DNA from: Aegilops tauschii subsp. strangulata
Taxonomy: Eukaryota; Streptophyta; Magnoliopsida; Poales; Poaceae
Assembly (NCBI RefSeq): GCF_002575655.3
Contig: NC_053039.3
Span: 45,199,290-45,263,289, forward strand
Direction of reading: 5' to 3'
DNA: 64,000 nucleotides
This document shows, piece after piece, positions 3,692-35,389 of this stretch. A program made the translations under genes and the position numbers. Under the pieces are notes generated by a model. It saw only the letters and a program-made list of their open reading frames with translations, did no database searches and was not told where the DNA came from. Each line of letters starts with the position of its first letter. Positions within the stretch are counted from its first letter, which is position 1.

Positions 3692-3694
3692 AAA

Positions 3695-3975
3695 CACTAG
3701 TAGAAAACAGGGCTTTGGGCCAGGCTGGGCCAGCCCATTAGTCCTGGTTCAGTCACGAACCGGGACCCATGGGGGCAACGGTCCCGGTTCGTGAGGCAGC
3801 CGGGCCTCGTGGGGCATTGGTCCCAGTTCGTCTGGACCCTTTGGTCCCGGTTCCAGACACGAACCGGGACCAATGTGCCTCGCTCCTGGCCCACAACCAT
3901 TGGTCCCGGTTCGTGGCTGGAACCGGGACCAAGGGGGGTCGTTTAGTCCCGGTTCCAGCCACGAGCCGGGACCAA
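3695..3975. repeat. CACTA 5' terminal inverted repeat and subterminal palindrome array
   Basis: The terminus cactagtagaaaacagggc is followed by repeated units in both orientations: ggtcccggttcgtg and cacgaaccgggacc, at about 3745-3790, 3835-3870, 3900-3935 and 3945-3975. In En/Spm-type elements such arrays bind the element's own DNA-binding protein; that role is inferred here. Confidence 0.88.
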
Positions 3976-3979
3976 TGAG

Positions 3980-3995
3980 ATGCCTATATATACCC
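3980..3995 (+). promoter_or_regulatory. Putative TATA box of CACTA gene 1
   Basis: tgcctatatatacccc lies immediately downstream of the subterminal array and upstream of the first gene. The position fits a core promoter controlled by proteins bound to the array. Confidence 0.55.
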
Positions 3996-4388
3996 CCTCA
4001 CCCGCGAGCAGGGCACTCCACTGCTCTGTTTTTCTGGCCGGCCGTTGGAGAGCTTTGTGATGCTCTAGCTCACCTCCTATGCACATGAGGTGTTCGATGA
4101 AATGCCCGAGCCATACTTAAGCTTTCTCCTCTCAAAGATCCTTGTCCAAACTCCATTTTCCTCAAGATTTGTCTAGGTTTGGCAGTCCGTGATCCTGTCC
4201 CGTCCCTGTCCTCACCGCCGTCGATCGCCCGCGCCGATCTCGTTGTCGGCACCGATCTCGTCGCCGGCACCACCGTGGTGAGCCTCTTGATCTTATCTTC
4301 TTTCTAAAAAAAGTTCTTACTTGTATGATTTAATTAGGTACTTGTGTAATTTTCTTACTTTTATTATTTTTTGTTATTATATAGTGCG

Positions 4389-4825
4389 ATGGTTTTGGTA
4401 TCCGCCTCCGTCGGCCCTCGTCCTGTCTATGATTCGGATGTGGTATATATTATCTTTTATAACTATTTGGTTCATTTATTGTTTATGAAAATTATGCTGA
4501 CCAACGTGACATAGATTTTTTTATCTACGAGGTATGCGAACCGGAAATTCCAACCGACCCTATTGTCAAGAGGTTAAATTTAGTTGAAGAAGTAAACAAT
4601 TACTTGAAGAAAAAATTAAAAAAAATTGGGGTGGAGAAGATGATATTGGAGTGGCATGTTGCGGATGTCGTCGATGATCACAAGATCAAGATGGATGCAA
4701 TGCGCTTGAAGATTAGAAAATATGCCATTCATACCGAGGCTTGGTATCATTATGTCGTTGGATCAATTGTTACCTTGGTTGCGATTATGATCGCATTTGT
4801 TGTTGCATTGAAATGTTTTACATAG
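4389..4825 (+). CDS. Small CACTA ORF with C-terminal membrane segment (two probable exons)
   Basis: A possible start ATG lies at 4389 with a short first exon to about 4442 (gatgtg followed by gtatat). A second coding stretch is open in one frame from about 4502 to the TAG at 4823-4825. It encodes an acidic then lysine-rich helical part (LVEEVNNYLKKKLKKI) followed by a hydrophobic segment of about 20 residues near the C-terminus (GSIVTLVAIMIAFVVALKCF). I recognise this small ORF as a recurring companion upstream of the transposase in Triticeae CACTA elements, but know of no function. Its second part has no stop or frameshift, unlike the transposase behind it. The exon boundaries are my guess from splice-like motifs, and it may instead be the 5' part of the transposase transcript. 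Confidence 0.5.
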
Positions 4826-4975
4826 TTTCAATGTATGGTTTAATTAGATGCTCTGGAGAACTATGTATGTACTTTGGTTTTAATGTGATGATGAACTTCT
4901 ATTAATTTGGTCACTTATCTATTCATGATGTTCTGTAATGGTTTTGACACACTTAATTACATATAATGCACGCAG

Positions 4976-7900
4976 ATGAACCGGCAATGGATGTACGGTA
5001 ACAGACGCACCTCCGAGTACATTGAGGGCCTGCATAATTTTCTCGCAGTGGCTGAGGCAAACAATGGTTTTATGTGTTGTCCATGCCCTAGCTGTGGGAA
5101 TACGAGGTCTTACTTTGACTCGAAAACCCTTCACACCCACCTGCTTTATAAGGGTTTCATGCCATACTATAATGTTTGGACCAAGCACGGAGAAATCGGG
5201 GTTATGATGGAAGACATCGAAAAGAATAGGATGATGACAACTATGTGCCCCCTGAATACGGTGATGCTGCAACGGGGGAAGCTGAAGATCAAGAGGAACC
5301 AAACGATGTGCCCGATGTTGATCTTCGCCGGGTCATTGTTGATGCAAAGAGACAGTGCGAAAGTGAAAAGGAGAAGCTGAAGTTTGATCGCATGTTAGAG
5401 GATCACAGAAAAAGTTGTATCCCAATTGCGAAGATGGCAACACAAAGCTCGGTACCGTACTGGAATTGCTGCAGTGGAAGGCAGGGAATGGTGTACCTGA
5501 CAAAGGATTTGAGAAGCTACTGAAAATATTGAAGAAGAAGCTTCCAAAGGATAACGAATTGCCCGACAGTACGTACGCATCAAAGAAGGTTGTATGCCCT
5601 CTAGGATTGGAGGTGCAGAAGATACATGCATGCCCTAAGGACTGCATCCTCTACAGCGGTGCGTATGAGGATTTGAACGCATGCCCGGTATGTGGTGAAT
5701 TGCGGTATAAGATCAGACGAGATGACCCTGGTGATGTTGACGGCGAGCGCCACAGGAAGAGGGTTCCTGCCAAGGTGATGTTGTATGCTCCTATAATACC
5801 ACGGTTGAAACGTCTATTCAGAAACAAAGAGCATGCCAAGTTGATGCAATGGCACAGAGAGGACCGTAAGAAAGATGGGAAGTTGAGAGCACCCGCTGAT
5901 GGGTCGCTGTGGAGAAAAATCGAGAGAAAGTACTGAAAGGAGTTTGCAGGTGATGCAAGGAACGTATGGTTTGGTTTAAGTGCGGATGGCATTAATCCTT
6001 TTGGGGAGCAGAGCAGCAATCACAACACCTGGCCCGTGACTCTATGTATCTATAACTTTCCTCCTTGGCTGTGCATGAAGCGGACGTTCATTATGATGCC
6101 AGTTCTCATCCAAGGCCCTAAGCAACCCGGCAACGACATTGATGTGTACCTAAGGCCATTAGTTGAAGAACTTTTACAGCTGTGGAATGGAAACGGTGTA
6201 GGTGTGTGGGATGAGCACAAACAGGAGGAATTTGACCTACATGTGTTGCTGTTTGTAACCATCAATGATTGGCCTGCTCTCAGTAACCTTTCAGGACAGA
6301 GAAACAAGGGATACCACGCATGCACGCACTGTTTAGATGACACCGAAAGTATATACCTGGACAAATGCAGGAAGAATGTGTACCTGGGGCATCGTCGATT
6401 TCTTCCGACCAACCATCAATGTCGAAAGAAAGGAAAGAATTTCAAAGGCGAGGCAGATCACCAGAAGAAGCTCGGCATCCGTACCGGTGATCACATACTT
6501 GCTATGGTCAATGATTTACAAGTAATCTTTGGAAAGGGTCCCGACGGACTATCTGTTCCGAATGACTCTGAGGGACGCGCACCCATGTGGAAGAAGAAAT
6601 CTATATTTTGGGACCTACCCTACTGGAAAGACCTAGAGGTCCGCTCTTCAATCGACGTGATGCACGTGATGAAAAATCTTTGCGTGAACCTGCTAGGCTT
6701 CTTGGGCGTGTATGGCAAGACAAAAGATACACCGGAGGCACGAGAGGACCAGCAACGTGTGCACGAAAAAGACGGCATGCCTCCAAAGCAGTATGAAGGT
6801 CCTGTCAGCTACGCTCTTACCAAAGAAGAGAAGGAAATCTTCTTTGAATGCCTGCTCAGTATGAAGGTCCCGTCTGGCTTCTCGTCGAATATAAAGGGAA
6901 TAATAAATATGCTAGAGAAAAAGTTCCAGAACCTAAAGTCTCGTGACTGCCACGTGATTATGACGCAACTGCTTCCGGTTGCATTGAGGGGGCTTCTACC
7001 AGAAAACATTCGATTAGCCATTGTTAAGCTATGTTCATTCCTCAATGCAATCTCTTAGAAGGTGATCGATCCAGAAATCCTACCAAGGTTAAGGACTGAT
7101 GTGGCGCAATGTCTTATTAGTTTCGAGCTGGTGTTCCCACCATCCTTCTTCAATATCATGACGCACGTCCTAGTTCATCTAGTCAACGAGATTGTCGTTC
7201 TGGGCCCTGTATTTCTACACAATATGTTCCCCTTTGAGAGGTTCATGTGAGTCCTAAAGAAATATGTCCGTAACCGCGCTAGGCCAGAAGGAAGGATCTC
7301 CATGGACCATCAAACAGAGGATGTCATTGGGTTTTGTGTTGACTTCATTCCTGACCTTAAGAAGATTGGTCTCCCTCAGTCGCTGTATGAGGGGAGACTG
7401 ACTGGAAAAGGCACACTAGGAGGGGACTCAATAATATGTAGGGACGGGCATTCTTGGTCTCAAGCACACTACATAGTTCTACAGAACTCTACCTTGGTGA
7501 CCGCGTATGTCGATGAACACAAGAACATTCTGCGCTCCAAACACCCGGAGCAGTATGACGACTAGATTACATGTGAACACATCAGGACTTTCGACAGTTG
7601 GTTACAAACACGTCTCAGGGGTGACAACACTGTTTCTGATGAGCTGTACTCGTTGGCCAGGGGACCATCTTCGACTGTATTGACTTACAAAGGGTACGAG
7701 ATAAATGGCAATACATTTTACACGATCGCCCAAGATCAAAAGAGCACCAACCAAAACAGCGGTGTCCGCTTTGATGCAGCAACCAAGAGGAGAAAGGACA
7801 CATATTATGGTTACATAGTGGACATAGGGGAACTTGACTACGGACATGATTTTAAGGTCCCTTTGTTTTAGTGCAAATGGGTCAATCTGTCAGGAGGCGG

Positions 7901-8270
7901 GGTACAGGTAGACCCACAGTATGGAATGACAACAGTGGATCTGAACAATCTTGGGTACACAGACGAACCATCGTCCTAGCCAATGATGTGGCACAGGTTT
8001 TCTATGTGAAGGACATGTCTACCAAACCGAGAAAAGGAAAAGATAAGGAAGCGAATACATCATACGATGAGCCAAAGCGCCACATAGTTCTTTCAGGAAA
8101 AAGAGACATCGTGGGATTGGAGGGCAAGACAGACATGTCTGAAGATTATGAAAAGTTCCATGAAATTCCTCCCTTCAAAAGTCAAGGCTGACCCAAGCAC
8201 CCTGTTAAACGATGAAGATTATCCTTGGTTACGGCGCAATAAGCAAAGGACACAAGCGAAGAAAAAGTGA
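4976..8270 (+). pseudogene. CACTA transposase (TNP2/TNPD-like), degenerate
   Basis: The coding part starts at ATG 4976, right after a splice acceptor (cacgcag). Parts recognised in order: a transposase-associated zinc-binding N-terminus (CPCPSCGNTRSYF, then HLLYKGF) at about 4980-5190; a Transposase_21 core (ACPVCGELRYKIRRDD near 5680; NDWPALSNLSGQRNKGYHAC near 6270; SSIDVMHVMKNLCVNLLGF near 6645); a DUF4218-like part (LLPENIRLAIVKLC near 6990; HNMFPFERFM near 7220); and a DUF4216-like end (ELDYGHDFKVPLF near 7835). It is broken by frameshifts near 5235, 5410, 7970 and 8180 and by in-frame stops at 5934 (TGA), 7056 (TAG), 7248 (TGA), 7563 (TAG) and 7869 (TAG). An intact relative would cut and paste CACTA ends; this copy cannot. 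Confidence 0.93.
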
Positions 8271-8334
8271 AGACTTTCTCTCCACCACTATTATGATGAT
8301 GCCTTTGATCTAGAATATCACAGCAGTTACATGT

Positions 8335-8891
8335 GAAGAAATGAAATGTCTTTTGTAACAGATGAGTTTCCGTATGAAACCCTGATACTTCGAAAGAGAT
8401 TGTCCGTTTTGTACACGAAGTGCATCTAGTTTTTGCCATAACCCTCTCAACTTTTTAACACATGCTATGTGGGTGAAATGATGATACCCTGCCAACTTTC
8501 AACCTTTTCAGAGTTCATTTGTAGTGCTTTTCAATTTCAGGGTCATTTAGCTTAAAAAATCAGTAAATGCATGAAAAATACCAGATGAAGTCAGAAAGGG
8601 TTGAAAATTGATGATGTGGCTTTGAATGGTTCATTTTGAACACACAAAAGTCTGGAGTTCAAATAAGTTCAAAAAAATGAAATTCCTTTGTAACAGATTG
8701 GTTTTCGTCCGAAACCATGATACTTCGAAAGAGATTGTCCATTTTGTACATGAAGTGCATCCAGTTTTTGCCATAACCCTCTCAACTTTTTAGCACATTC
8801 TATGTGGGTGAAATGATGATACCATGCCAACTTTCAACCTTTTCAGAGTTCATTTGTAGTGCTCTTCAATTTCAGGGTCATTTAGCTCAAA
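8335..8891. repeat. Direct repeat downstream of transposase, period about 335 bp
   Basis: A stretch of about 215 bp at 8335-8555 recurs at 8672-8891. Shared segments include gatacttcgaaagagattgt, ccataaccctctcaactttt and gtgggtgaaatgatgatacc. The copies differ at scattered positions, so this is an old tandem duplication in the 3' untranslated part of gene 1. Confidence 0.85.
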
Positions 8892-9515
8892 GAATGAACT
8901 AATAGAAAAAAATGAACTAATAGCAAAAAGAATGAACTAAAAATAATCAATTCAAATATTCTATTATGATCAACTAAAACAAAACTATAATATTCTTCAA
9001 TAGCAAAAAGAATCAACGAAAAAGCTTTTATAAAACTCTAATAGCAAAATGAATCAACTAAAATGCTTTTATAAACCTCTATTATTTTTGGAACTAAAAT
9101 TATATAAAATTTATGAAACTAAAATTATCAAAGTATTTTCTGTTAAAACATGAAAGCAAAAAGAATTTTCATAAAGAAATTTTTTGTTAGAAACTTCAAT
9201 AGTAAAAAGAATATCATAAGGAATTTTTTGTTAGAAACTAAAATAACAAAATCTGTTTTTGAATATAATGATAAAACATAGTAATATTAAATAGCAGGAA
9301 AAAGACTCCAAAATCTATTTTTGTAGTAAAGTTAATCACAAACTAGTGATTCACACAAATTTCAAAGAATTCAAATTTAAAAGCTAATGGCACTAACAGA
9401 AAGTGTATAATTTTTCTGACCTAATGGCAAAAAGAATTAAAAAAACAAAAAAAAACAAAAGAAAATAAATAATGCAAAAAACAAAACAAAAAACTAGAAA
9501 AAATAAAAAATGCCA
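8892..9515. other. A-rich spacer inside the CACTA
   Basis: Very A-rich sequence built from repeats of phrases such as aatagcaaaaagaat and atgaactaa, with no open frame. It separates gene 1 from the internal promoter region of gene 2. Confidence 0.6.
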
Positions 9516-9739
9516 CCTACTGGGCCACCACGGCCTGAATACGACTAGAAACCCCATTGGGCCAGGATTCAGGCCCGCAGAAGGCCCAGTTGGCCCACAT
9601 GCAGCGGAGTCTGAGATTAGGTCCGTAAGCTTGCATTTGAGAGGAGCTTGAGAGGGCAACGACAGTGGGGCTTATAAACCACTCCGAGCCCCTCTCAACT
9701 AGCGAGGTGGGACTAAACTTTTGGAAATGGGCAGCACAA

Positions 9740-9975
9740 GGCCTTTGGTCCCGGTTGGTAGCACCAACCGGGACGAAAGGGGTGCATTGGTACCGGTTCG
9801 TGGTACCAACTGGGACCAATGCCCCCTTTAGTCCCGGTTGGTGCCACCAACCGGGACCAAAGGTCCTTGTTTCCCGCCCTTTGGGCTGCTGAAAAGAGAC
9901 CTTTGGTCCCGGTTGGTGGCACCAACCGGGACTAAAGGGGGGCATTGGTCCCGGCCACGAACCGGGACCAAGGGC
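9740..9975. repeat. Internal array of subterminal-type palindromes
   Basis: Units such as tcccggttggtggcaccaac and its complement occur at about 9748-9776, 9789-9818, 9831-9860 and 9905-9935, and a unit of the terminal type (cacgaaccgggacc) lies at 9956-9970. The internal core is ggttggt rather than ggttcgtg, so most units are a variant of those at the element ends. The array lies directly upstream of a TATA box and a GC-rich leader, so it looks like the regulatory region of CACTA gene 2. Confidence 0.8.
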
Positions 9976-9977
9976 TT

Positions 9978-9990
9978 TCCTATATAAGTG
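9978..9990 (+). promoter_or_regulatory. Putative TATA box of CACTA gene 2
   Basis: tcctatataagtg follows the internal palindrome array by a few bases, mirroring the arrangement at 3980-3995 for gene 1. The GC-rich leader starts about 40 bases downstream. Confidence 0.55.
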
Positions 9991-10009
9991 GCACTTAGGA
10001 ATTTTTGCA

Positions 10010-10440
10010 GCAAGTTCTCACATTTCTCCCCGACGCCGACGCCCTGCGCCCTGACGCCCTGCTCCTCATCGCCGCGCCCTGCCCCGTCGCCGCCCGCTGC
10101 TCGTCGCCGTCGCCGGCCCTACCTTCTCGTCACCGTCGCCGCGCCCTGCACTGATGCCGTTGCCGCGCCCTGCCCCGTCGCCGTGCCCTGCCCCGAGCCC
10201 ATCCTTGTCATCACCGCCCCGAGCCCTCTCCTCGTCGCCGACGTGTCCTCGCCATGAGCGCCGCCCCGATCCCCTCCTCCTCCTATTCCTCCTTGTACTG
10301 GCCGCCGTCGCCGCGCCTTGCCCCGTCGCCGCGCCCTGTCGCCGACCCCGACGCCCTGCCGCCGACCCCGATGCCATCGGTGGCGAGCCACTGACCAAGG
10401 GGGTCAAGTGTGGCGACACCATGTGGGATAGATGAAGATG
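10010..10440 (+). other. GC-rich leader of CACTA gene 2
   Basis: A C-rich run of imperfect units (gccctgccccgtcgccg and similar) with open but low-complexity frames on both strands. I read it as 5' untranslated or leader sequence. It ends near tggcgacaccatgtgggata at 10411-10430. Confidence 0.5.
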
Positions 10441-10914
10441 AGGAGTGCATGGCATCGATTCCCCCCTCTGTCCAAAATATTTCTGAATTTACTGAATTTT
10501 TTGACAGTGCTAAACAGTGCACATCAAGTGTATGATGAAATGCCAAAAGGGCTCTAGGAATTTTAGGAATGTTTGAGAATTTTTGTGGTGACGCGTTGAT
10601 GCACAAAAGAGAGTCTGGAAAAGTTTGAGAATTTTTTGTCCAATTTAAATTGCGCTTTGACCATGGAGTTTGAATCTGGTCCAAATTTGAAGTGAATGAA
10701 ATTTGAAATTTTTGAACTATAGAACCAAATGTTTTTGGCGGAATGGGTTGTGGGTACTGTCAAATAGATGGAGTAATTTTTGTGGGTGCAAAGGAATTGG
10801 GGAGAATATATCTCCTTTGCAAATCAAAGGAAATATGAATAATTGAAATTCAATTTATTAAATATAAGAAAAATAATTACATAGTTAGAGATATTTGCAT
10901 AGTTCGAGATATTC
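10441..10914. other. Non-coding CACTA sequence, probable intron
   Basis: AT-rich DNA without a supported frame between the gene 2 leader and the low-complexity hairpin. I see no other structure in it. Confidence 0.4.
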
Positions 10915-11182
10915 ATGATCAAAAAGAAAAAGAAAAATAATTACATAGGAAGAAGGAAGAAGAAGAAAAAGAAGGAGAGGAAAAAGGAAAATAAGAAGAG
11001 GAAGAAGGAGAAGAAGAGGAGAAAACAAATAAAAAGAAGAAGAAGAGGAGAAAAAAATAAGAAGAGGAAGAAAAAAAGAGGAGAAGAAGAAAAAATTGAA
11101 TTATTCTATTTTTTCTTCTTCTCCTCTTTTTTTGTTCTTCTATTTTTTGTTCTTCTCCTCTATTCCTTCTTCTTCTCCTCTT

Positions 11183-11213
<31 letters not shown>

Positions 11214-11225
11214 ATTTTTTATCGG
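10915..11225. repeat. Purine tract and complementary pyrimidine tract forming a long inverted repeat
   Basis: About 180 bases of almost pure A/G on the top strand (gaagaagaaa, aggaggag) are followed by about 115 bases of almost pure T/C. The core is a perfect 26-bp inverted repeat, 11071-11096 against 11108-11133, with an 11-base loop. The outer parts pair imperfectly. Confidence 0.9.
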
Positions 11226-11360
11226 GAACGAGGGTGTCGAGGATCGCCGAGCGGTCGAGGGTCGGGAACTAGGGTAGAGGGTCGAGGTCGAGGATCGCCG
11301 AGGGGTCGAGGGTCGAGGTTCGAGGATCGCCGAGGGGTCAAGGGTTGAGGGTCGAGATTT
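11226..11360. repeat. Minisatellite of gtcgaggatcgccgag-type units
   Basis: Imperfect tandem copies built from gtcgagg, atcgccgag and gggtcgagg between the purine/pyrimidine repeat and the CLASSY-like hairpin. Non-coding as far as I can see. Confidence 0.8.
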
Positions 11361-11586
11361 ATCAAGAATGCCCCCATTATGGATGTGCACAAGTTGACCC
11401 AATTTTTTTTCTGATCTCATATATATATATATCACGTTGTCTATCACAGTATTGAAGAAATCCATGGCTACATCATTAGCAGGAAGTAACAGGCGTATGA
11501 TGCTACGAAGCTCTTAAAAGTTGTTTTGGAACGGAGTTCCGGATAGAATAATTCACTTTTTTGTACGAATTTCAGGAAAGCCTTCC
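11353..11586 (-). pseudogene. Captured CLASSY/DRD1-like SNF2 ATPase fragment, left arm of a hairpin
   Basis: Read on the minus strand, this arm encodes IILSGTPFQNNF (helicase motif III of SNF2 ATPases), then after a TAA stop and about 65 codons the phrase LVHIHNGGILDKS. That second phrase is typical of the plant CLASSY/DRD1 branch, where a [LF]-x-H-[IV]-x-x-G-x-I-L segment lies between the two ATPase lobes. An intact protein of this branch would act in the nucleus in RNA-directed DNA methylation. Only about 75 codons remain, with one stop, so no ATPase can be made. It is the near-complement of the plus-strand arm at 11601-11838 at about 80% identity by eye. The outer end runs into the minisatellite. 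Assignment to the branch rests on these short motifs. Confidence 0.75.
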
Positions 11587-11600
11587 AAATAGCGATATTC

Positions 11601-11838
11601 GGAAGGCTCTTGCTGAACTTCGTACCAAAAAGCTAATTATCCTATCTGGGACTCCGTTCCAAAACAATTTTGGAGAGCTTCATACCATTATGCGCCTGTT
11701 ACTTCCGGCTAATGATGAAGCCATGGTTTTCTTGAATCCTTTGACACTAGACAACGTGACATATAGAAGGGTAGATGAGATCAGGAAAAATATGGACCAT
11801 TTTCTGCACATCCAGAATGGCGCCATTTTGTTAAATCC
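11601..11838 (+). pseudogene. Captured CLASSY/DRD1-like SNF2 ATPase fragment, right arm of a hairpin
   Basis: The open frame 11561-11887 includes LRTKKLIILSGTPFQNNF (motif III residues encoded at 11645-11671) and DHFLHIQNGAIL (His codon at 11807), both expected in the SNF2 domain of CLASSY/DRD1-type remodelers. The matching left arm abuts it across a 14-base loop (11587-11600) that begins and ends in ccttcc/ggaagg. No ATP-binding motif I or later helicase motifs are present, so this is a gene fragment. No intron is apparent, so I cannot tell capture from genomic DNA from capture of cDNA. The frame continues a short way into unrelated CACTA sequence (to 11887). Confidence 0.78.
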
Positions 11839-11935
11839 CTTGTTTGACATTCATGAGAGAGGCGGTCCGGACGTCGGACATTCATGAGAGAACTTCGGTA
11901 ACTCTTCAACATGAGGGAGGACGTCGATCAACCCC

Positions 11936-12225
11936 CTCTCGCCCGACCAAACCCTAGGAGCATCGAGGCCACCCCAAACCCTAGAAGCGTTGCCGAGGCC
12001 ACCCAAACCCTAGAAGCGTCGAGGCCACCCAAACTTACCAAGTTAAAAGAGCGTTGTCGAGGCCACCCCAAGCCCTAGAAGCGTTGCTGAGGCGACCCCA
12101 AACCCTAGAAGCGTCGAGGCCACCCAAATTTACCATGTTAAAAGAGCCTTGTCGTCGAGGCCACACCAAACCCTAGAAGCGTTGTCGAGGCCACCCCAAA
12201 GCATAGAAGCGTCGAGCTAGCTAGG
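11936..12225. repeat. Minisatellite of ccctagaagcgt-cgaggccacc units
   Basis: About nine imperfect copies of a 20-30 bp unit built from aaaccctagaagcgt and cgaggccacccc, two of them followed by a ttaccaagttaaaagagc-type spacer. It lies just upstream of the first recognised exon of gene 2. It is tandem, without spacers of constant length, so it is not a CRISPR array. Confidence 0.85.
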
Positions 12226-12299
12226 TCTATGTTTGCCACTACTATATCCATCTCTCATGTTTGTATATTAATTGCCATGTTGTAATATTTGTAGAAACT

Positions 12300-12440
12300 A
12301 TGGAGCAAAGAGACTTGGAAACAGAACTGTTGTTGGGGGACATAATCCTCGGTGGAGGTGATGTCTTGTCGTATCTTAATGAAACTGATGGTCTGGAAGG
12401 AGAGGGTGAAGGATCCGGTGATCGAATAATGGAGGAGGAA
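12300..12440 (+). pseudogene. CACTA gene 2, first coding exon, left part (interrupted)
   Basis: ATG at 12300 lies just behind a splice-acceptor-like tttgtag. The exon encodes MEQRDLETELLLGDIILGGG and an acidic Gly/Glu-rich stretch. After 12440 it is interrupted by the first Gypsy element and resumes at 21287 in a similar Gly/Asp/Glu-rich style (GDHDDGSGDRMEEG). The TSD aggaa at 12436-12440 and 21287-21291 marks the insertion point. Confidence 0.75.
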
Positions 12441-12910
12441 TGAGGGAGTCCTGGATTAGGGGGTCCTCGGACAGTCGGACTATATACTTTAGCCGGACTG
12501 TTGGACTATGAAGACACAAGATTGAAGACTCCGTCCCGTGTCCGGATGGGACTCTCCTTGGCGTGGAAGGCAAGCTTGGCAATACGGATATGTAGATCTC
12601 CTCCCTTGTAACCGACTCTGTGTAACCCTAGCCCCCTCCGGTGTCTATATAAACCGGAGGGTTTAGTCCATAGGACAAGAACAATCATACCATAGGCTAG
12701 CTTCTAGGGTTTAGCCTCTACGATCTCGTGGTAGATCAACTCTTGTAATACTCATATCATCAAGATCAATCAAGCAGGAAGTAGGGTATTAACTCCATCG
12801 AGAGGGCCCGAACATGGGTAAACATCGTGTCCCCCGCCTCCTGTTACCATCCGCCTTAGACGCACAGTTCGGGACCCCCTACCCGAGATCCGCCGGTTTT
12901 GACACCGACA
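12441..12910 (+). repeat. 5' LTR of Gypsy element 1
   Basis: Begins tgagggagtcctgg and ends gacaccgaca. Contains a TATA-like ctatataaac near 12646. The following ttggtgctttcattgagag (from 12911) is in the primer-binding-site position; I did not assign a tRNA. Confidence 0.93.
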
Positions 12911-13170
12911 TTGGTGCTTTCATTGAGAGTTCCACTGTGCCGTCGCGATAAAGGCTTGATGGCTCCTTTGATCATCGCCAACGATGCGATCCAGGGTGAG
13001 GTCTTCCTCCCCGGACAGATCTTCATATTCGACGCTTCGTACTGCGGGCCAACTTGCTTGGCCATCTGGAGTAGATCGAGAGCTACACCCCTGGCCGTCA
13101 GGTCAGGCTAGGAAATTTAAACTACACTGCCGACATCCGCGGAGACTTGATCTTTTACGGATTCGAGCCC

Positions 13171-16023
13171 ATGTCAGGTGCGCCGCACAGTCACGACGAG
13201 CACGACTTAGCTCTGCCGCCGGACGGTGTTCGGGAGAGCACACCTATGGCTACTCCGGCCCTAGACCCGGAGTCGATTGCGCCGTCCGAGGACGGGTGGA
13301 TGGACCCTGCCTCGGAGGCCACACACTCAGTGGCGATAGAGCCGAATACTGACTTCACCTTCTATGAGACCTGTGTCGCCGGATCCTCGGATTCGTCCCC
13401 GGCCATAGGCCCCAAACCGCCTGCGTCCATGCCTATCGAATCTGATTGGGCGCCGATCATGGAGTTTACCTCTGCGGATATCTTTCAGCACTCGCCTTTT
13501 GGTGATGTGCTAAATTCATTAAGGTCTCTCTCCTTGTCAGGAGGCCCTTGGCCGAACTATGTCCGGCTCGAATGGGAGGCGGACGACGAAGAAATTCGTT
13601 CCCCACCCACCACCCACTTAATAGCCATCGTCGATGACTTAACCGACATGCTCGATTTGGACTCCGAAGACATCAATGGTATGGACGACGATGCAGGAGA
13701 AGAACAGGAACCGCCGCCCACAGGGCGCTGGACAGCCACTTTATCACACGATATATATATGGTGGATACACCCAAAGAAAACAATGACGAGGAATGGAAG
13801 GATGCAGCGAGGGATAGTTCCCTCGAGAAGCAACCAAAGTGACGGCGTAGGCGCCGCTCCAAATCCCGCCTCGGCAAAAACAGTGATAACAGCACAAGAA
13901 AAAATAATACCCCGGTTGACCCCAGAGGAAACAACGACCACACGGACCCAGCGACAGAGCAGGATGAACCAGCGGACGGCGAACATAGTACGGAGCCGCT
14001 GTCCGATCACGGCGACGCCGAGGATAAAGCTCATCAACCTCTCTCCGGAGAGGAAAACAGTCCGGACGACGATGCACACATCATCCCGGAAAGGCACTTG
14101 GAACAAGAGAACCTCCATAGAAGGCTTATTGCCACTGCGAGGAGTCTGAAGAAGCAGAAGCAAAGGCTTAAGGCCGCGCAGAATACGCTCAGCAGTAGAT
14201 GGAACAAAGTGCTCGACACTGAAGAAAAGTACGGCGGCAGTCACCACACAAAGAGCTATCCAAAGCGCAAGCTGTTGCCTGAATTTGATGATGAGGCCTT
14301 AGAGCCTACACAGCCGAAAAATAAAACGGCCGACCGGTCGGATCGACCACCTCGTGGCCGCGATAGGGCGGCTAACGAGGCCGCACATAAGTCAGCACAT
14401 GATTCATGCGAGGACTTGCATCAAAAAGCTGGCGTGACCAGATCCATCTACGGATCTAGGAAGCGCGCTCCAGCGCAGAATCAAAACCGAACACTACAAC
14501 CGTCAGAACGCCATGGCACATCCAAATATAGGGGTGCCGCGCACCCCCTATGTTTCACCGATGAGGTGCTGGATCACGAATTTCCAGAGGGATTCAAACC
14601 CATGAACATAGAGGCGTATGACGGAACGCCAGACCCTGGGGTCTGGATTGAGGACTTCATCCTCCATATCCATATGGCTCGCGGAGACGATCTCCACGCC
14701 ATCAAGTACTTGCCCCTCAAGCTGAAAGGACCAGCTCGGTACTGGCTGAAGAGCCTCCCCGAAAATTCAATTGGAAGTTGGGAGGAGCTTGATGATGCTT
14801 TTAGGGCTAACTTTCAAGGGACCTATGTTCGACCTCCAGATGCAGACGATTTAAGTCATATAATTCAACAGCCCGGAGAGTCAGCCCGAAAGCTTTGGAA
14901 CAGATTTCTCACTAAGAAGAACCAAATCGTCGACTGCCCGGACGCCGAAGCCTTAGCAGCTTTCAAACACAGCGTCCGAGACGAATGGCTCGCCAGACAC
15001 CTCGGCCAAGAAACACCGAGGACAATGGAAGCCCTAACAAGCCTTATGACCCGCTTTTGCGCGGGCGAAGATAGCTGGCTGGCCCATAGTAGCACGAGCG
15101 ACCCAGGCACATATGAAGTCAGGGATGGCAATGGAAAACCATGACGCAGTAAAAGCAAGCATCGAAATAACGAAGACAGCCGAAACAACACGGCGGTAAA
15201 CGCCGGATTTAGGGGCTCTCGACCCGGTCAACGGAAAAAGCCTTTCAAAGGCAGCAGAGATGGACCGTCCAGCCTAAACAAGATTCTAGACAAATTATGT
15301 CAGATTCATGGCACCCCCGATAAACCTGCAAATTACACCCACAGAGAATGTTGGGTCTTCAAGCAGGCCGGCAAGCTAAACGCCAAACACAAGGGGAGGG
15401 AGACACCAAGTGAAGACGAGGATGAGCCTCGCCAGCAAAACACTGGGGGACAGGAAAAATTCCCACCAGAGGTCAAAAGAGTGAACATGATTCACGTAAC
15501 AAAAAGAAGGAGCAAACACACACTCCTAGACATATGCGCCGTAGAGCCCGTCACCCCTAAGTTCAACCCTTGGTCGGCCTGCCCGATCACTTTTGATCGT
15601 AGGGATCACCCGACTAGTATCCGGCACGGAGGATTGGTTGCCTTGGTGCTAGACCCAATAATCGACGGATACCATCTCACCCAAGTCCTCATGGACGGCG
15701 GCAGTAGTCTTAATCTAATATATCAGGACACAGTCCGCAAAATGGGGATAGACCCGACAAGAATCAGCCAAAGCAGTACTATCTTTAAAGGAGTAATACC
15801 AGGCCCAGAGGCCCGCTGTACGGGCTCTCTAGTACTAGAGGTTGTATTCGGTCCTCCCGACAACTTCCGAAGTGAAAAGTTAACCTTCGACATCGCTCCA
15901 TTCCGCAGCGGCTATCAAGCACTACTCGGAAGAACGACCTTCACTCGTTTTAATGCAGTACCGTATTACGCTTCTCTTAAGCTTAAGATGCCCGGTCCAC
16001 ATGGCATCATCATAGTTAGCTGA
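13171..16023 (+). pseudogene. gag-protease of Gypsy element 1 (two in-frame stops)
   Basis: One frame runs from ATG 13171 to the TGA at 16021, broken by TGA at 13840 and at 15142. The N-terminal part is acidic. A retrotransposon gag (PF03732-like) core lies at about 14560-15080 (IKYLPLKLKGPARYWLKSLP, then RFLTKKNQIVDCPDAEAL). A retropepsin-like domain at about 15620-15990 has MDGGSSLNLIY, so the usual D-[ST]-G reads DGG, and the second conserved block YQALLGRTTF. Gag would form the particle and the protease would cut it. Both stops are TGA where CGA would fit, compatible with deamination of methylated CpG. The frame ends without any pol, so the element never reaches RT. Confidence 0.85.
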
Positions 16024-17277
16024 ACACTAAGCGTTCCTTATGCGCGGAAGAACGTGTGGCGGCTTTAGCAGCCGAACACTAAATGGCCTTTCCAACCAGA
16101 ATAAATGGTCGGTCGTCAAGACCGCGTACACGGCTAGACGAGTCCGGCGCACCACTAGCTGTAACAGCTTAGATAAACCTGAGATTGGTTTGGTGGATAT
16201 ACCCCCATAGGCGGTACCAGGGGCTTCCCGCATGTAAAAGGGACTACAGTTCGGCTTTACCTCATTTAGATTGAATTTTAATGAGAATAATCAGTTTTCC
16301 GCACGAAGACTTTCATCTAAGTTTTTCTCTTTTACAGATGACAATCGTGCTACACCCTTCCAGGATACGGCACAACGGAGACACAGGCGCAGACGTGCAG
16401 CAGGGCCCCGCTCAAAGGTTTCTTTTTAGATTAAGACCCTGTGTAAACCTTTCTTACTGTCTCTTGTTGCTTGACACCCCCCGGATACCTAAGACAACCG
16501 TGAGGGATGCTGGCGTTGTTGGCATTTCGCCACGACAGAATAATGCACGTACCTGCAAATTTAGGGTCCATTATCAAGGGCGTTACTCAGCCCGGTACAT
16601 GTTGTAAAGACCGAACACCTTAGGGAGTGTTCGGTGTCGCGAGTTTGGCCTTATATGCACCACCTCCGAATCATGTCTTTGGTCAAATGTTGGGTTTGCC
16701 CGGCTCCCGCGTTTTGCTACCTTACGTTCCGCTCTATCGGCTAAGGTGGCACCGGGAGAACTACTGCGATTGTGCCCTGGTTCATCCGGATGAGCACCTC
16801 AGTAGAGAATGCTGAAAACTGACTGTCATGATAAAGCGCGAGACTGGTCAACCACTCGATGACTTAGCGGAATCTTTGGGATTCCTCTGCATTAACGAAG
16901 GGCCGGTTTTCCCGGTCATGTACGTATGCGCCCCGTACTCGGATGAGCGCGGAAGTACCAGGGGCTATATAGTAGCCCCACTGTCAAACTCCTATGGTTA
17001 AGTGAAAGTGTTAAAGCAATATAGTTCGATTGCCTCGTTCGCCGCGCTACCACCTCCTTAATGGACCAAGACGTTGGATCAAGTGTGAACACGTGCTTTT
17101 GCGAACACCCCCGCATTATATGCGTGGGGGCTGAAGCCGACGACTGCAAACTTTCAGGTTATATATATATATATATACATAAACGACCGCACATGAGGCA
17201 TAATAATACTTTCAGGCAAAAGTATAAACACAGCCTCTATAATTCAAATAGCATTGTTCTTACAATCAGGATACATG
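16024..17277. other. Non-coding spacer of Gypsy element 1
   Basis: No long supported frame. Part of it (about 16690-16810, with gggtttgcccggctcccg and catccggatgagcacctc) resembles a segment at about 29320-29440 in Gypsy element 2, showing that the two elements share their spacer. A short AT dinucleotide run lies at 17160-17176. Confidence 0.6.
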
Positions 17278-20200
17278 TCACTCGAACATGACACTCTTCG
17301 AGCACTGAGCCTCTATTAAACGAGCACCTTCTAGGACTTCTTCGAAATAATGCTCGACCGAAACCTGGCCTACGGCCGGATTCTGGGTTGCAATAGCGGT
17401 GGCCTCCATCTTTGCCCAGTATGTCTTGACACGGGCAAGAGCCATCCGCGCACCCTCTATGCACGCCGACCTCTTTACAGCGTCAATATGCGGCATAGCA
17501 CCAAGGAATCGTTGCACTAGACCAAAATAACTATTTGGCCTTGATCCTTCCGGCCAAAGACGATCCACGACAGACCTCATGGCAAGTCTGGACAACCTAT
17601 GGAGCTCGGCCCACTCGGCCATTTGCTCATTTAACAGCAGCGGACGCGCTGGAGCATTGAACTGCGACCAGAACAACTTTTCCACTTCGCGATCCTTTTG
17701 ATCTTCGAAAAACTTGGTCGCATCAGCAGCACTCGCTGCCAAATCCAAGTACGCGTCCGCAAAACTCCATAATTGATCCAGAAGGGCATACTTAGGATCT
17801 CCGAACTTCGTCCGCAACAAAAAGGGCTTCCCAGCCGTGATATCTCCGGCTTGACGTAGCTCCTCCTTCGCTGCTATGATTTTAGAGCGGGTTTCCTTGA
17901 CTGCTACCATGGCTTTCTCCAGGTCCGCCGTCTTCGTTTGACTTTCGCTTTCAAGAATCTCGTAACGGTCAGCGGCATCTTTCAACTCAACAACCATCTT
18001 GGCCATTTTCTCTTTGCTCTGGCAATGCGCAGCCTGTTCGGCTCTTAACTCTTCAACCGCCTTTAGGGCGGCCGCATCACTCCTCCTGGCTTGTTCCTTG
18101 GCTCGGCCAAGTTCCGCCCGAAGGGTCTCCACGGCGGTAGCTCCATCTGCAGTCACAACATATTATAGATACTAGCATCATGCTCCTCTTAATATATGTT
18201 GACCACCGAAGAATACATACCCTGTGCCTCGTCAAGCCGCCTGTTTACAAGCACGATGTCGGCATCCGCCGCATCAAGTTGCCGCAACAGTTCGGCAAAC
18301 TTACCAGTCCGGCTAGCCACCGGACCCTCAGCCGCCTGCACATGAAAGCAGCACGGTTATTACCTGGGACTATGATCCTCTGTTTGCCGCCTTTTTCGAC
18401 AGAAACCAGAGTCTCAGGGGCTACTATCTGCATAGGGCACACCTAGCGTGTGCGGTACCATAAAAAATATACATATTACTTTGCGTACCTCAAAGCCTCT
18501 CAGCAGGCTCATAAAAGCTTCATGCAACCCGCTTTCGGCGGATGAAAACCTCTCAACCACCGTACCCATTAGCGTATGATGCGCTTCTGAGATAGCCGCT
18601 TGCTCCAGAAGATTCATCAGTGCGTCTGGTCGCGCACCGGACAGTCCCGGACTCTTTCTATTGCTCCCCTTAGGAGCCGAATACTCCGGACTTCGGGAGG
18701 CCGAAGGGTTACCTTCTGGCCTTGGTGGATCAGGAGAAATCCTTCGTGACGACACCTCTGGGTCGTCCGCCTCATGAGGCGGGGAGGCATGGGGAGGCGT
18801 TTCGTTCTCCATCATCTCCGGAAGAAGATCCCCCGAAGACGAACTCTGTCGAGAAGGGCTACGGTCCGAACTACAAGACATACGTCTCGGTTATTGTCCT
18901 CGGAAATAAAGTAAGATATATTTACTATAAAGTGCTTTTGTTTACTTACAGCTCGGTGGAGGGCTGGTCCCCTTGCGGGCACTGTGCGATAAGGATGCCC
19001 TCCGGGGTAGGGCCCCCTGACAAAGGTTTCTTGCCTCGTTTGGAAACCATTGTTTCCAAGTCTTCAGAGGCGGCCCTCTTCCTTCCTTGGGGAGAGGGAA
19101 TTTTAGATTCTTCTCCCCGGTTATCCTCCTTCGCGGAGGCACTAATTCCCCTGGTTTGGATGAATAATGAGTGAGGCTCGCTTTCGGCTTCTTTGTTCCT
19201 TCCTTTATCTTCCCCTGATGGCGCTTGATAAGGCGCAAGCTCAAGCATCCTGGCTAGTACAGGATCCGGTGAGCCTTCGGGAAGGGGGGCCGAACACCTG
19301 ATCATCTTCGCCTTTTTTATCCAGTCCTGGTCAAAGACCGACTTTTCAGAATGATGTTGTGATAAATAAAGAGACAGTATGTTCGGCCGAAGAATTACTT
19401 ACTTGGGTGTCTGGACGATTGCAGTTTAGGCCCGCATCCTCGGTGGTGTCCGGACACTTTATTCGTGATCCGAAGAACAATCTGTACATCTCTTCGAGCG
19501 TCACGCTGAAGAATTGCCGAATGGTTCGCGGTCCTTCCGGGTTGAACTCCCACATACGGAGAGATAGACATTGGCATGGCAGGACCCGACGAACTAGCAT
19601 GACTTGCATTACTTTGACAAGGCTGACATCTCTCTTGAGGAGATCCCGGATGCGACTCTGCAATGTTGGCACGTCATTAGCCGGCCCCCAGTCCAGCCCC
19701 TTGTCGACCCATGACGCCAGTTGTGGCGGGGGGCCCGAACGGAAGGCGGGGGCAGCTATCCACTTAGTACTTCGGGGAGCCGTGATGTAAAACCACTCCC
19801 GCTGCCATAAGTTGGACATCTCGGGGAAGGATCCCTTTGGCCATGGAGCATCGACGCCTTTGCTTATTATGGCGCCTCCGCACTCTGTGTGTTGCCCATC
19901 GATCAACTCCGGCTTCACATTGAAGGTCTTGAGCCATAAGCCGAAGTGCGGGGCGATGCGGAGGAAGGCCTCACACACGACGATAAACGACGAGATGTGA
20001 AGGATGGAATCCGGAGCCAGATCAAGGAAATTGAGCCCGTAATAGAACATAAGCCCTCTAACAAAGGGATCAAGACTAAAGCCTAGCCCTCGGAGGAAGT
20101 GGGAAACAAATACGACGCTCTCGTTGGGTTCGGGAGTGGGGATGACCTGCCCTTGAGCAGGCAGCCTGTGCGAGATTTCGGCGGTCAGATACCTAGCTTC

Positions 20201-20416
20201 TCTTAGCTTCTTGATGTCCTCCTCTGTGATGGAGGAGGCCACCCACTGGCCTTGAAGGTTGGATCCAGACATGATTGAAGGTCCGAAGCGCTTGGCCTCC
20301 GACTTGGGTGCTGGGATTTGAGGTGGGAGAAAGGAAAGATCGAGCGCAAGAAGAAAAGGACAGGCCTTGACCCCTTTATAAAGAGGGTGAATATCAAGCG
20401 CCCTCCGCACGACCAT
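17278..20416 (-). CDS. Antisense gene of Gypsy element 1, Transposase_28-like (PF04195), multi-exon
   Basis: On the minus strand, the first exon (frame from 20416, likely start ATG about 20271, MSGSNLQGQW) ends at a donor near 19402 (ccaa/gtaagt). Its core has HFLRGLGFSLDPFVRGLMFY and then LWQREWFYITAP, which I associate with the Pfam family named putative gypsy-type transposon. A second exon (about 19326-18950) is in frame, basic and Ser/Pro-rich. Further exons at about 18881-18490 and 18336-18222 lead to a last exon (to the stop at 17278) with a long Ala/Glu/Lys coiled coil (about residues 1-100 of that exon) and a helical domain. The exons are free of stops, unlike the sense gag. Function unknown; the name transposase is historical. 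Antisense genes in this position are known from Tat-lineage plant Gypsy elements. Confidence 0.7.
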
Positions 20417-20816
20417 CTAGAACTTGCCTAAAATCGAGGAGTCTTACCAACGGGCGTGATTGGGTTACCCACACTCGTATTGATGAGAATCCCGTGAAAA
20501 GAGGGACACGATCTCTGCTTCAACAAGACGTGCTAACAAAGCCGCCTCGCAACACGTGCAGTGGCAGGCTCGGAAAAAACGGTTCGTCATGACCAGATCA
20601 CGGCAGAACGTCACGTTAAGAAAAGCTATCAGCAGATTAGATTTGTGGAAATATTATTCTCTCTACGGTGGTATGTGGAATTTGTTTTGCAGAGCCGGAC
20701 ACTATCCTTGTGTTCAAAATCTTCTATGGAATATTCGGAGGAGGAACCCGCCTTGCAATGCCGAAGACGATCTGCGCGCCGGACTCATCGTCATTGAAGC
20801 CTGGTTCAGGGGCTAC

Positions 20817-21286
20817 TGAGGGAGTCCTGGATTATTGGGTCCTCGAACAGCCGGACTATATACTTTAGCCGGACTGTTGGACTATGAAGACACAAGATTG
20901 AAGACTCCGTCCTGTGTCCGGATGGGACTCTCCTTGGCGTGGAAGGCAAGCTTGGCAATACAGATATGTAGATCTCCTCCCTTGTAACCGACTCTGTGTA
21001 ACGCTAGCCCCCTCTGGTGTCTATATAAACCGGAGGGTTTAGTCCGTAGGACAAGAACAATCATACCATAGGATAGCTTCTAGGGTTTAGCCTCTATGAT
21101 CTCGTGGTAGATCAACTCTTGTAATACTCATATCATCAAGATCAATCAAGAAGGAAGTAGGTTATTACCTCCATCGAGAGGGCCCGAACCTGGGTAAACA
21201 CCGTGTCCCCCGCCTCCTGTTACCATCCGCCTTAGACGCACAGTTCGGGACCCCCTACCCGAGATCCGCCGGTTTTGACACCGACA
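20817..21286 (+). repeat. 3' LTR of Gypsy element 1
   Basis: Near-identical to 12441-12910, with about 16 differences counted by eye. It is preceded by a short purine-rich stretch (caggggctac). Confidence 0.93.
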
Positions 21287-21399
21287 AGGAAGGACACGAT
21301 CATGATGGCTCCGGTGACCGAATGCCGGTGGAAGAAGGAGACCATGATGACGGCTCCGGTGACCGAATGGAGGAGGGTGCTGTTGCAAAGTCCGGCGAG
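21287..21399 (+). pseudogene. CACTA gene 2, first coding exon, right part
   Basis: Continues the exon cut by Gypsy element 1. It encodes repeated Gly/Asp/Ser-rich units (DDGSGDRM) and ends at a donor-like gcgag/gtatat near 21399. Confidence 0.65.
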
Positions 21400-21493
21400 G
21401 TATATATATTAATTGAGTCTGTGCCGACTAGCTAATTGATGCATTAATTGTTTTGCTATGTACATATATTAACTCTTCTTTCTTATTTTCTAG

Positions 21494-23393
21494 CCCTCCG
21501 GATCGAGCCAAACTTCGGTAACGAGATGTGGCCCAAAGAAAAGGTTGCGCCAGGATGAAAGGTTCACGATCACATCAATCTCGAACGATGGCCAACCGAT
21601 TGAACCCAGGCGGACCAAGGAAGCATTTTCTGCTCAGTGCGGGGTTATTGTTAGGGACATGATCCCGATTAGGATCCAATTATGGAATAAGCGTAAGAAC
21701 GAAGACCCTCAAGTTCCTTATGTCAACGATAGACAGAAAGATGATCTTTGGACCTCGCTGAAGGCAAATTTCACCCTACCACCAGAGGAGGATCCGGATA
21801 AGCCAGTTATAGAGCCACTGGTCAAGGCTCATTCTCTTAAGAAGATGGCAGATCTATTCAGGAGGTGGAAGAATGAGTTGAAATCAACGTATGTCGACAA
21901 AGGGAAGACTCCTGAATTCACCGGCCGATTTGAGAAGATAAGAGATCACTGGCCCGCATTTGTGGCCTACAAGACATCGGACAAGAGTAGGAAGATGTCA
22001 AAGACAAACAAGATAAATGCTGCAAAGAAGCTGTATTACCATTGCACGGGGTCAGGTGGCTACCTCAAAGCCCGGCCGTTGTGGGACAAAGCTGAGAATG
22101 ACCTGAATTCTAAAGGGGTCGAACCAGAGATATTGAATTGGCCAGACCGTTCAAGGACTTGGTTTTTTGGGGTTGGTGGAACCTTGGACCGTGAAACAGG
22201 GAAGTGCGTTTGGACGGACGAGCAACTTGCAACACCCATCAAGAAGCTTTAGAAGTGTATCGCCGCAGCACAGAAAGGGACGTTCGTTCCCGACAGAGAG
22301 AATGACGAGCTGACCGAGGCCCTCGGGAATCCTGAGCACCCTGGACGAATATGAGGCACGCCAGGCTCCGTTGCGTGGAAGGTTGGGTTTCCCGGCGCAT
22401 GCGGTTACAAAACCCAGGAGAGGAATAGGAAACTGGAGCAGAGAAAAATGCAGAAGCTGAATGCAAGAGTACAAAAGCTAGAGGAACAAGTTGAGAGCCA
22501 GCGAGCTACCGGAGCTACCCCAGAAGCTACGCCGCCATCTCAGCGGAGAAGCAGCATGGCTTCCACCGAGCTCGTTCAGCAGCCTGACTTCACGGCTGCT
22601 AGCTACCCCGTGGATGCTATCACGGAGGCTCAACATTGCCGGCTTATGATGCAATGGCAGAACCTCAAAGTCAAGGCGGCTGTCGGCTCTGTTGCTCCTC
22701 TTGAACCCGACGGAACTTTTCACTTCCGTCTGATTCCACATGGCTATGCTGTTGTGATGGCGGATGAAGTAACAGAGGGATTTGAGGAGCTCGAGCTTGA
22801 CCACCCTACAGGTGAAGGGGAGACTCAGCTGGGTCTTGCTCTGAAGACTCCATGTCTATGGCAGAAGGAGCACATCAAGCTTTCGAACTGGACGCCTCCG
22901 CCTCCTCCTCCTCCTCCTCTGGCGAGTCAGGGCACTCCGCCTCCTCCTCCTCCTACTCCTCCGGCGAGTGATCAGGGCACTCCACCTCCTTCTCCGGCTG
23001 CTCCGGCGCGTGAGGCCGGCACTCCGCCTCCTCCAGCGCGTCTGACCAGTCCGCCTCCTCCTCCGCCTCGTCAGCAACGGCGGAAGACAGACGCCGCCGC
23101 TCCGGCTCCTCCGGCGCGTTGGAGCACTCCGCCTCCTTCTCCGCCTCGTAAGCAACGATAGAAGAGAGACGCCGCCACTCCGGCATCTAGTAGTATAGCC
23201 AGAGGCGGGAGGCAATACAGATATGGTCCATCTCTCAAGCCTCTAGAGAAGTTACCATACGAGAGTACCGTGGAGGAAAACGCGGAGATCTGTGAAGCCT
23301 ATGTGAAGGACTTATTTGCAAAGAAACCTCCACCTCCGAAGGAGATGATAGATCCGGTGAAAGCGAAGCACACTATCGATGCCCTGAAGCAAC
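21494..23393 (+). pseudogene. CACTA gene 2, Transposase_24-like region and proline-rich linker
   Basis: Starts at a splice acceptor (ttctag at 21488-21493). The first part (to the TAG at 22250) has WPDRSRTWFFGVGGTLD and VYDRQ-like basic/aromatic segments typical of the plant Transposase_24 family (PF03004), the DNA-binding second protein of En/Spm-type elements. The same frame, after a second stop near 22352, continues with a coiled-coil stretch (LNARVQKLEEQVESQ near 22455), then VTEGFEELELDHPTGEGET near 22770, and a low-complexity Pro/Ala/Ser linker at 22889-23158 ending in TAG (23159-23161). Beyond it EAYVKDLFAKKPPPP leads to 23393, where Gypsy element 2 interrupts the exon. In En/Spm such a protein binds the subterminal repeats; here inferred. 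Confidence 0.8.
22889..23158 (+). repeat. Proline-coding trinucleotide-rich tract
   Basis: Repeats of cctcctcct, ccgcctcctcc and actccgcctcct encode PPPPPP, GTPPPPPP and similar blocks. It is the disordered linker of CACTA gene 2. The long arginine-rich frame on the other strand is its shadow. Confidence 0.8.
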
Positions 23394-23863
23394 TGAGGGA
23401 GTCCTGGAGTAAGGGGTCCTCGGGCGTCCGGCCTGTTGGATATGGGCCGGACTGATGGGCTGTGAAGATACACGACCGAAGACTCTCACCCGTGTCTGGA
23501 TGGGACTCTCCTTGGCGTGGAAGGCAAGCTTGGCGTCCGGATATGCAGATTCCTTTCTCTGTAACCGACTTTGTACAACCCTAGTCCCCTCCGATGTCTA
23601 TATAAACCGGAGGGCTTAGTCCATAGGGGCAATCATAATCATATAGGCTAGACTTCTAGGGTTTTAGCCATTACGATCTCGGGTAGATCAACTCTTGTAA
23701 TACTCATATTCATCAAGATCAATCAAGCAGGAAGTAGGGTATTACCTCCATAGAGAGGGCCCGAACCTGGGTAAACATCGTGTCCCCCGCCTCCTGTTAC
23801 CATCGACCTTAGACGCATAGTTCGGGACCCCCTACCCGAGATCCGCCGGTTTTGACACCAACA
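23394..23863 (+). repeat. 5' LTR of Gypsy element 2
   Basis: Begins tgagggagtcctggagtaag and ends gacaccaaca. TATA-like ctatataaac near 23598. The same ttggtgctttcattgagag as in Gypsy element 1 follows from 23864 in the primer-binding-site position. Confidence 0.92.
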
Positions 23864-23889
23864 TTGGTGCTTTCATTGAGAGTTCCGCC

Positions 23890-24681: not shown

Positions 24682-24693
24682 AAGTACTGCGCA

Positions 24694-32663: not shown

Positions 32664-32977
32664 GTTGGAATGGTTCCTCCCAGCAGGCTCTGAGGATTTT
32701 TTCCGAGTGGTGTGGAACGCATCTGGGATCCAATCTCTTTAAATAGACACTTTTCTCACATGGCGGAGGTGTTATGTGCAAAAAATACCCTGACCTCTCG
32801 TATTCGCTCGACACGTGGAAGCTAAAGTCATGGGTGCACAGAAGCCGATGGGTACAACATTCAATGGAAGGCCAAATACATCTCTTTGAAGTCATCGGAG
32901 GAGGAACCTGCCTTGCAATGCCGAAGACAATCTGCGCGCCGGACACATCGTCATTGAAAGCCTGGTTCAGGGGCTAC

Positions 32978-35332: not shown

Positions 35333-35355
35333 CCCCCCCCCCCCCCCCCCCCCCC
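35333..35355. repeat. Run of 23 C
   Basis: An uninterrupted poly-C on the plus strand about 200 bases inside the CACTA 3' end, followed by taaaaaaaac. Such runs are error-prone, so its length may be an assembly artefact. Confidence 0.9.
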
Positions 35356-35389
35356 TAAAAAAAACAAAAACGCCAACTCCTGAGCTAAC

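Follow-up and report, generated by a model that had tools for sequence, protein, structure and literature searches.

A CACTA transposon of Aegilops tauschii carries a long hairpin of CLASSY3-like gene sequence with apparent counterparts in other copies

A 64,000-nucleotide stretch of the Aegilops tauschii subsp. strangulata genome (hereafter the window, to which all positions refer) holds a CACTA transposon in which two head-to-head fragments of an SNF2 ATPase gene lie at 11356-11837. This fold-back is real, the hairpin that it forms on prediction is far beyond chance, and comparison with related proteins indicates that both arms derive from the SNF2 domain of a CLASSY3-like gene, of the CLASSY 3/4 branch, and that the fold-back recurs in other copies of the element. 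The reading that we favour, with moderate confidence, is that of a captured gene fragment that underwent an early inverse duplication, was spread by the transposon and probably yields siRNAs acting mostly on the transposon's own family. The likelihoods that we attach to this reading and to its rivals overlap, as it shares self-silencing with one of them and a passenger origin with another, and they do not sum to one.

Table 1 Features of the CACTA element and its hairpin, in positions of the window
Feature	Position	Strand	Evidence
CACTA (En/Spm-type) element, interrupted by two nested LTR retrotransposons	3695..35560	+	ends, repeats near ends, transposase domains
ORF1 piece, transposase-associated domain	4976..5380	+	Pfam Transpos_assoc 6.9e-21
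ORF1 piece, tnp2 transposase	6036..7058	+	Pfam Transposase_21 1.6e-58
Left hairpin arm, CLASSY3-like SNF2 fragment, with stops	11356..11589	- (antisense to the element's genes)	arm alignment, translation, tree
Open frame, 108 codons, from left of the centre through the right arm	11561..11887	+	ORF; relatives in 82 short protein clusters
Fold-back centre, junction common to other copies	11590..11597		fold, arm alignment, clusters crossing it
Right hairpin arm, CLASSY3-like SNF2 fragment, sense	11598..11837	+	arm alignment; Pfam SNF2-rel_dom 3.9e-7; 55/80 residues identical to barley P0007
Short repeats, ccaaaccctagaagcgtcgaggcc type, between hairpin and ORF2	11947..12216		self-BLAST 11947-12033/12098-12199 and 11963-12118/12057-12216
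ORF2 start (MEQRDLETELLLGDIILGG...), cut by retrotransposon at 12441	12300..12440	+	translation; relative P0205
Nested LTR retrotransposon, LTRs 96.6% identical	12441..21286		LTR pair; gag domain; P0205 reads across uninterrupted site
ORF2 continuation, Transposase_24 remnant	21545..22252	+	Pfam 0.0012, 19.5 bits, under curated cut-off of 28.7
Second nested LTR retrotransposon, LTRs 95.6% identical	23389..33451		LTR pair

A preliminary description of this DNA had placed the fold-back in a CACTA element, and the termini, the subterminal repeats and the tnp2 and associated domains bear this out (Table 1). Both ends of the element read inward CACTAGTA(G/A)AAAA, with AAA outside each of them (CACTAGTAGAAAA and, reverse-complemented, CACTAGTAAAAAA). 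Taken alone, the 3-base AAA duplication is weak evidence for an element; it occurs here together with inverted CACTA termini, a tnp2-type transposase and subterminal repeats at both ends, the latter being GTCCCGGTT/AACCGGGAC motifs at 3740-3945 and 35468-35494, with a further cluster at 9747-9960 and one at 31572. The internal cluster at 9747-9960 may represent a nested or fused CACTA end, and a sub-threshold MIR8670 match lies at 9813-9950 (86 bits, 150 being needed). The element also holds a direct repeat of about 225 bases, 92% identical (8336-8560 / 8672-8895), and, adjoining the hairpin at 10957-11220, a purine-rich stretch followed by its pyrimidine-rich near-complement. Elsewhere in the window, direct repeats of 1420 bases and 97.3% identity (43122-44541 / 51232-52650) are probably retrotransposon LTRs, with minus-strand open frames at 46857-51153.

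The first nested retrotransposon splits ORF2, which reads ...DRIMEEE before the insertion and EGHDHDGSGD after it. Relative P0205 is unbroken across this site (...MEEEEGHDHDGSGD) and joins the right flank of the hairpin to the ORF2 start, its residues 48-112 matching 12255-12431 at 71%; QTLEALPRPP repeats that match the short repeats between hairpin and ORF2 are found in several relatives. The continuity of P0205, together with the splitting of ORF2 by the retrotransposon, places the hairpin between the tnp2 transposase gene and the ORF2 start, where it would presumably belong to a leader, an intron or a read-through transcript.

The arms, which the preliminary description had put at 11353-11586 (minus) and 11601-11838 (plus) with about 80% identity by eye, align at 11356-11589 and 11598-11837 with 196 identical bases out of 232 (84.5%) and 10 gap bases, around core arms of 135 nt and 84% identity (11444-11578 and 11610-11744) detected by a repeat finder. 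The long hairpin proposed on this basis was recovered by folding: plus-strand RNA gave one hairpin of -265.9 kcal/mol (shuffles -109 ± 6; z -26.2), minus-strand RNA gave -262.9 kcal/mol (z -22.7), and in either case 0 of 100 shuffles folded as well. A 14-base loop had been described between the arms; in the predicted fold this segment is itself mostly paired, and the stem closes down to a 4-nt loop. Translation gave the expected motifs in both arms, namely SGTPFQNNF in each and the H-I-x-N-G-x-I-L block as HIHNGGIL on the minus side and HIQNGAIL on the plus side. Two in-frame stops interrupt the minus arm, which also changes frame near the loop, and the frame of the plus arm stops at 11887, ahead of ORF2.

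To place the arms among SNF2 proteins, the plus arm, which matches the Pfam SNF2-rel_dom family, was searched against long proteins, where five of 121 candidates passed E 0.01. The best were Aegilops tauschii P0001 and Aegilops geniculata P0002 (61% over 82% of the query), followed by CLASSY 4-like proteins of Corylus and Diospyros (P0003, P0004) and one unnamed protein; barley P0007, for which Table 1 gives the identity, is named CLASSY 3-like. A tree was then built on 132 columns from 136 rows, namely 122 long SNF2 proteins, the two window arms and 12 of the 82 copies described below (P0010 was dropped as its anchor motif was missing); it is midpoint-rooted for drawing, and about half of its forks are open. 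In it, the two arms and the 12 chosen copies formed one clade (SH-aLRT 97), nested in a clade with the CLASSY3-like proteins of barley, Aegilops and wheat (95), next to which stood Festuca P0008 (98). Duplications specific to grasses have been documented within the CLSY3/4 clade (PMC12680349). Thus, of the CLASSY/DRD1 assignment made in the preliminary description, the CLASSY part holds, as CLASSY 3/4, by both relatives and tree, and the DRD1 part found no support: no DRD1-labelled relative was present among the 5 hits or the 120 rows listed, many of them unnamed or with the name cut. We set a DRD1 origin aside on these grounds and because the CLASSY3/4 branch fits the arms, in a tree built without DRD1 itself. 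A generic SNF2 origin was likewise rejected, the best Protein Data Bank match reaching only 6.3e-5 (8he5_O, a DNA repair protein chain), followed by RAD26 at 0.0039. The simplest reading of these relationships would be that the fragment was captured once, in the wheat/barley lineage, and then duplicated inversely.

Since no DNA of other copies turned up in the viral contigs or genome contigs searched, copies were represented by protein clusters, which covers only copies with open frames. Of 86 candidates retrieved with the plus-arm frame, 82 short protein clusters passed E 0.01. Their source labels are ena, src, jgi, lgn and ncbi, and the contigs with a stated length do not exceed 6,284 bases. 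In 17 of the 82, the frame covers 60 nt or more of each arm, one of these clusters (P0199) representing 84 sequences; another 26 extend across the centre by 15 nt or more; and 39 do neither, most of these covering one arm only and being uninformative either way. This split allows a 20-residue overlap between matched pieces, and a 12-residue limit changes it to 13, 26 and 43. Among 123 long SNF2 proteins used as a control, 122 had a match, none read both arms and one (P0034) crossed the junction. Both arms or the junction are therefore read in 43 of the 82 clusters, which supports the presence in other copies that the preliminary description had made one of its tests.

The copies are not uniform. 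P0142 and P0192 retain more of the gene beyond the arm end, as judged by eye against P0001, so arm length appears to vary, and the initial sequence of P0139, P0157 and P0195 does not resemble the loop. None of the 82 clusters contains the DEGH or TPRN stretch from further upstream in the gene, which supports a shared break point to the extent that the frames reach it, many of them starting inside the arm, where they cannot tell. Reordered hairpin parts were seen in P0126, P0133 and P0136 (arm 2 then the start of arm 1; the loop read oppositely; antisense right flank before an arm), hinting at recombination between arms. In P0151, residues 65-110 join the right-arm flank to the LTR sequence of 12773-12910 (91%), reflecting either the same LTR family near the hairpin in another copy or a contig chimera.

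When copies were classed by the reading direction of their loop (P0186 left out), the arm types clustered on a tree that included the loop columns, with 3 changes against a least possible 2. They mixed more on the tree without those columns (7 changes, least possible 2, shuffled mean 12.6), where the two types separate only partially. A single early fold-back duplication is likely on this pattern, though not proven, and the mixing may be due to exchange between arms or to loop flips.

The divergence between the two arms of the window is 0.174 (K2P). At an assumed substitution rate of 1.3e-8 per site and year, this would correspond to an estimated age of 6-7 million years, about 6.7 by calculation. 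Mismatches between the arms on the plus strand comprise 8 G-U, 7 A-C and 21 others; G-U and A-C being about equally frequent, pairing has not been protected, and selection on RNA pairing, considered as a candidate, was not seen. Differences fall on codon positions in the numbers 11, 10 and 15 (of 76, 78 and 78), dN/dS between the arms is 0.59 (73 usable codons of 78), and the longest identical run, 17 bases, was reached by 3722 of 5000 shuffles. Over 81 of the 82 clusters, the run IILSGTPFQNNF ranks first in conservation among 12-residue windows (96%, compared with 84% elsewhere), and this conservation, together with a dN/dS below 1, hints at constraint. In the 24 plus-type copies alone, its conservation was 94% (85% elsewhere), with five other windows equal or higher, and special conservation of IILSGTPFQNNF was thus not relied on. 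Overall, we favour a divergence close to neutral drift with a mild hint of constraint.

Such near-neutral divergence is what would be expected of a pure passenger, a fold-back left by aborted repair that hitchhikes with the element without being transcribed or processed to any effect. The loss of the centre in two copies (P0190, P0196) points the same way, and so does the frequency of comparable events elsewhere, given that CACTA elements in wheat have captured an estimated 2,500 or so genes or pseudogenes (PMC4290129), which makes one RdDM gene among them unsurprising by itself, and that about one-third of maize CACTA elements are reported to hold hairpins of some kind, mostly near their ends (PMC10760457). 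Against it stands the retention of the junction or of both arms in the 43 clusters, and we regard this alternative as quite possible, if well short of an even chance. That the SNF2 piece is kept for its protein, as a short peptide or an ORF2 fusion, is in our view very improbable. The dN/dS value and the right arm of P0205, which runs in one frame into the ORF2 start, would agree with such a role, but the piece spans only about 90 residues of a domain of about 310, short of a complete two-lobe ATPase, the minus arm is interrupted by stops, and the plus frame ends before ORF2.

The reading that we favour can be set out as follows. In the wheat/barley lineage, an ancestor of the CACTA family would have captured one piece, about the size of an exon, from a CLASSY3-like remodeller gene; the piece, placed just upstream of ORF2, would then have been inversely duplicated, and the fold-back would have spread as the element multiplied, a step that the sequence of the copies supports. 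Given its plus-strand position between the two genes of the element, the hairpin would be included in a read-through transcript or in one with an ORF2 leader, and a long fold-back of 85% identity would be a fit substrate for Dicer-like enzymes, most likely yielding siRNAs of 21-24 nt that would act mainly on the transposon family itself. The hairpin would have been retained through copy inheritance, rather than through demonstrated silencing of host CLASSY genes. Besides the strength of the predicted hairpin, the tree and the recurrence in copies, this explanation draws on the near-neutral divergence of the arms, on the frequency of gene capture by CACTA elements and on the maize small-RNA mapping cited below. 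Persistence of the fold-back over the estimated 6-7 million years could instead reflect a useful function, which would speak against this explanation, as do the hints of constraint, the only partial separation of arm types and the divergent starts of P0139, P0157 and P0195.

With regard to known small RNAs, none of the 63 Rfam matches listed in 3600-13000 reached its gathering score, and at the hairpin only MIR439 appeared among them (27.9 bits, gathering score 90). A literature look-up of six stem strings matched one, to miR1439 entries in three papers, a Mariner-type sequence sharing 14 nt. A known miRNA in the stem was hence rejected, this 14-nt overlap being taken as chance. Hairpins of maize transposable elements, CACTA included, tend to be regions to which small RNAs map (PMC10760457). 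This correlation, the long stem and the position before ORF2 would all suit a hairpin whose siRNAs feed back on the CACTA family and dampen it, with no effect on host genes. The stem, however, is gene-derived rather than transposase sequence, so that secondary siRNAs would be required for silencing to reach the remainder of the element, and we consider this version, taken on its own, possible but rather unlikely.

Among other systems in which transposons and silencing meet, VANC of VANDAL elements is said to be an anti-silencing protein; were the hairpin anti-silencing, it would serve the same end, as an RNA and not a protein. Maize Mu killer is reportedly a hairpin locus of transposon sequence that arose by inverse duplication and silences MuDR; the present fold-back resembles it as a long hairpin produced by inverse duplication and able to feed siRNA pathways, but its stem is host gene sequence carried by the transposon. 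Rice miR820 is, to our knowledge, the only small RNA from a plant transposon that targets the RdDM machinery. It is described as a CACTA fold-back with OsDRM2 sequence, in five copies, with 22/24-nt products and mapped cleavage, whose similarity to OsDRM2 reaches into exon 2 and intron 3 (PMC3459959), and it has been termed an anti-silencing factor in a review (PMC5943564). In the window, too, an internal fold-back with the sequence of an RdDM-pathway gene lies inside an element of the CACTA class and has spread with it in multiple copies. It differs from miR820 in that the donor is CLASSY3-like rather than OsDRM2, the arms measure about 235-240 bases and the hairpin is known from sequence alone, and for these reasons we do not file it as a miR820-type miRNA gene. 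Like the fragments captured by wheat CACTA elements (PMC4290129), it is a piece of a host gene carried without the remainder; unlike them, it is inverted-duplicated and recurs across copies, and the excerpted text of that study describes no such fold-back. A CACTA-borne CLASSY hairpin was likewise not described in the titles and abstract openings among the literature matches listed.

The comparison with miR820 raises the alternative that siRNAs or a young miRNA from the stem would direct cleavage or methylation of CLASSY3-like genes of the host, reducing the recruitment of Pol IV and thereby releasing the CACTA family from silencing. The element class and the logic would be those of miR820, which lowers OsDRM2 (PMC3459959); the fold-back is present in many copies; and a target exists, as donor-branch proteins with both ATPase lobes are still found in wheat, Aegilops and barley. 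Maize genes that donated captured fragments are reported to have more siRNAs and methylation than other genes (review PMC8616336). At the residue level, both arms share the 12-residue run IILSGTPFQNNF with 8 of the 10 grass proteins compared, 10 of its residues being common to both arms, barley P0007 and Festuca P0008, and P0007 has two more runs, of 7 residues each, in common with the plus arm; runs long enough for a perfect 21-mer thus number one (10-12 residues) in each of the 10 grass proteins, plus these two in P0007. On the other side, the arms are only about 61-69% identical at the protein level to their nearest host proteins, which leaves few 21-mers able to match the host. An activity ongoing in this copy is further disfavoured by substitutions that show no pairing bias and spread over all three codon positions, and the sole literature match of the stem was the Mariner-type miR1439. 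We therefore hold this alternative to be doubtful, and regard as equally doubtful the broader proposition that the CACTA family carries a heritable hairpin against CLASSY3-like remodellers, at the entry step of RdDM, as a second and independent instance of the miR820 strategy.

A recurring fold-back of CLASSY3-like sequence in another CACTA lineage would show whether the miR820 strategy had more than one origin. Should the hairpin prove to be cargo, it would still provide a natural multi-copy series for studying how captured gene pieces become siRNA loci.
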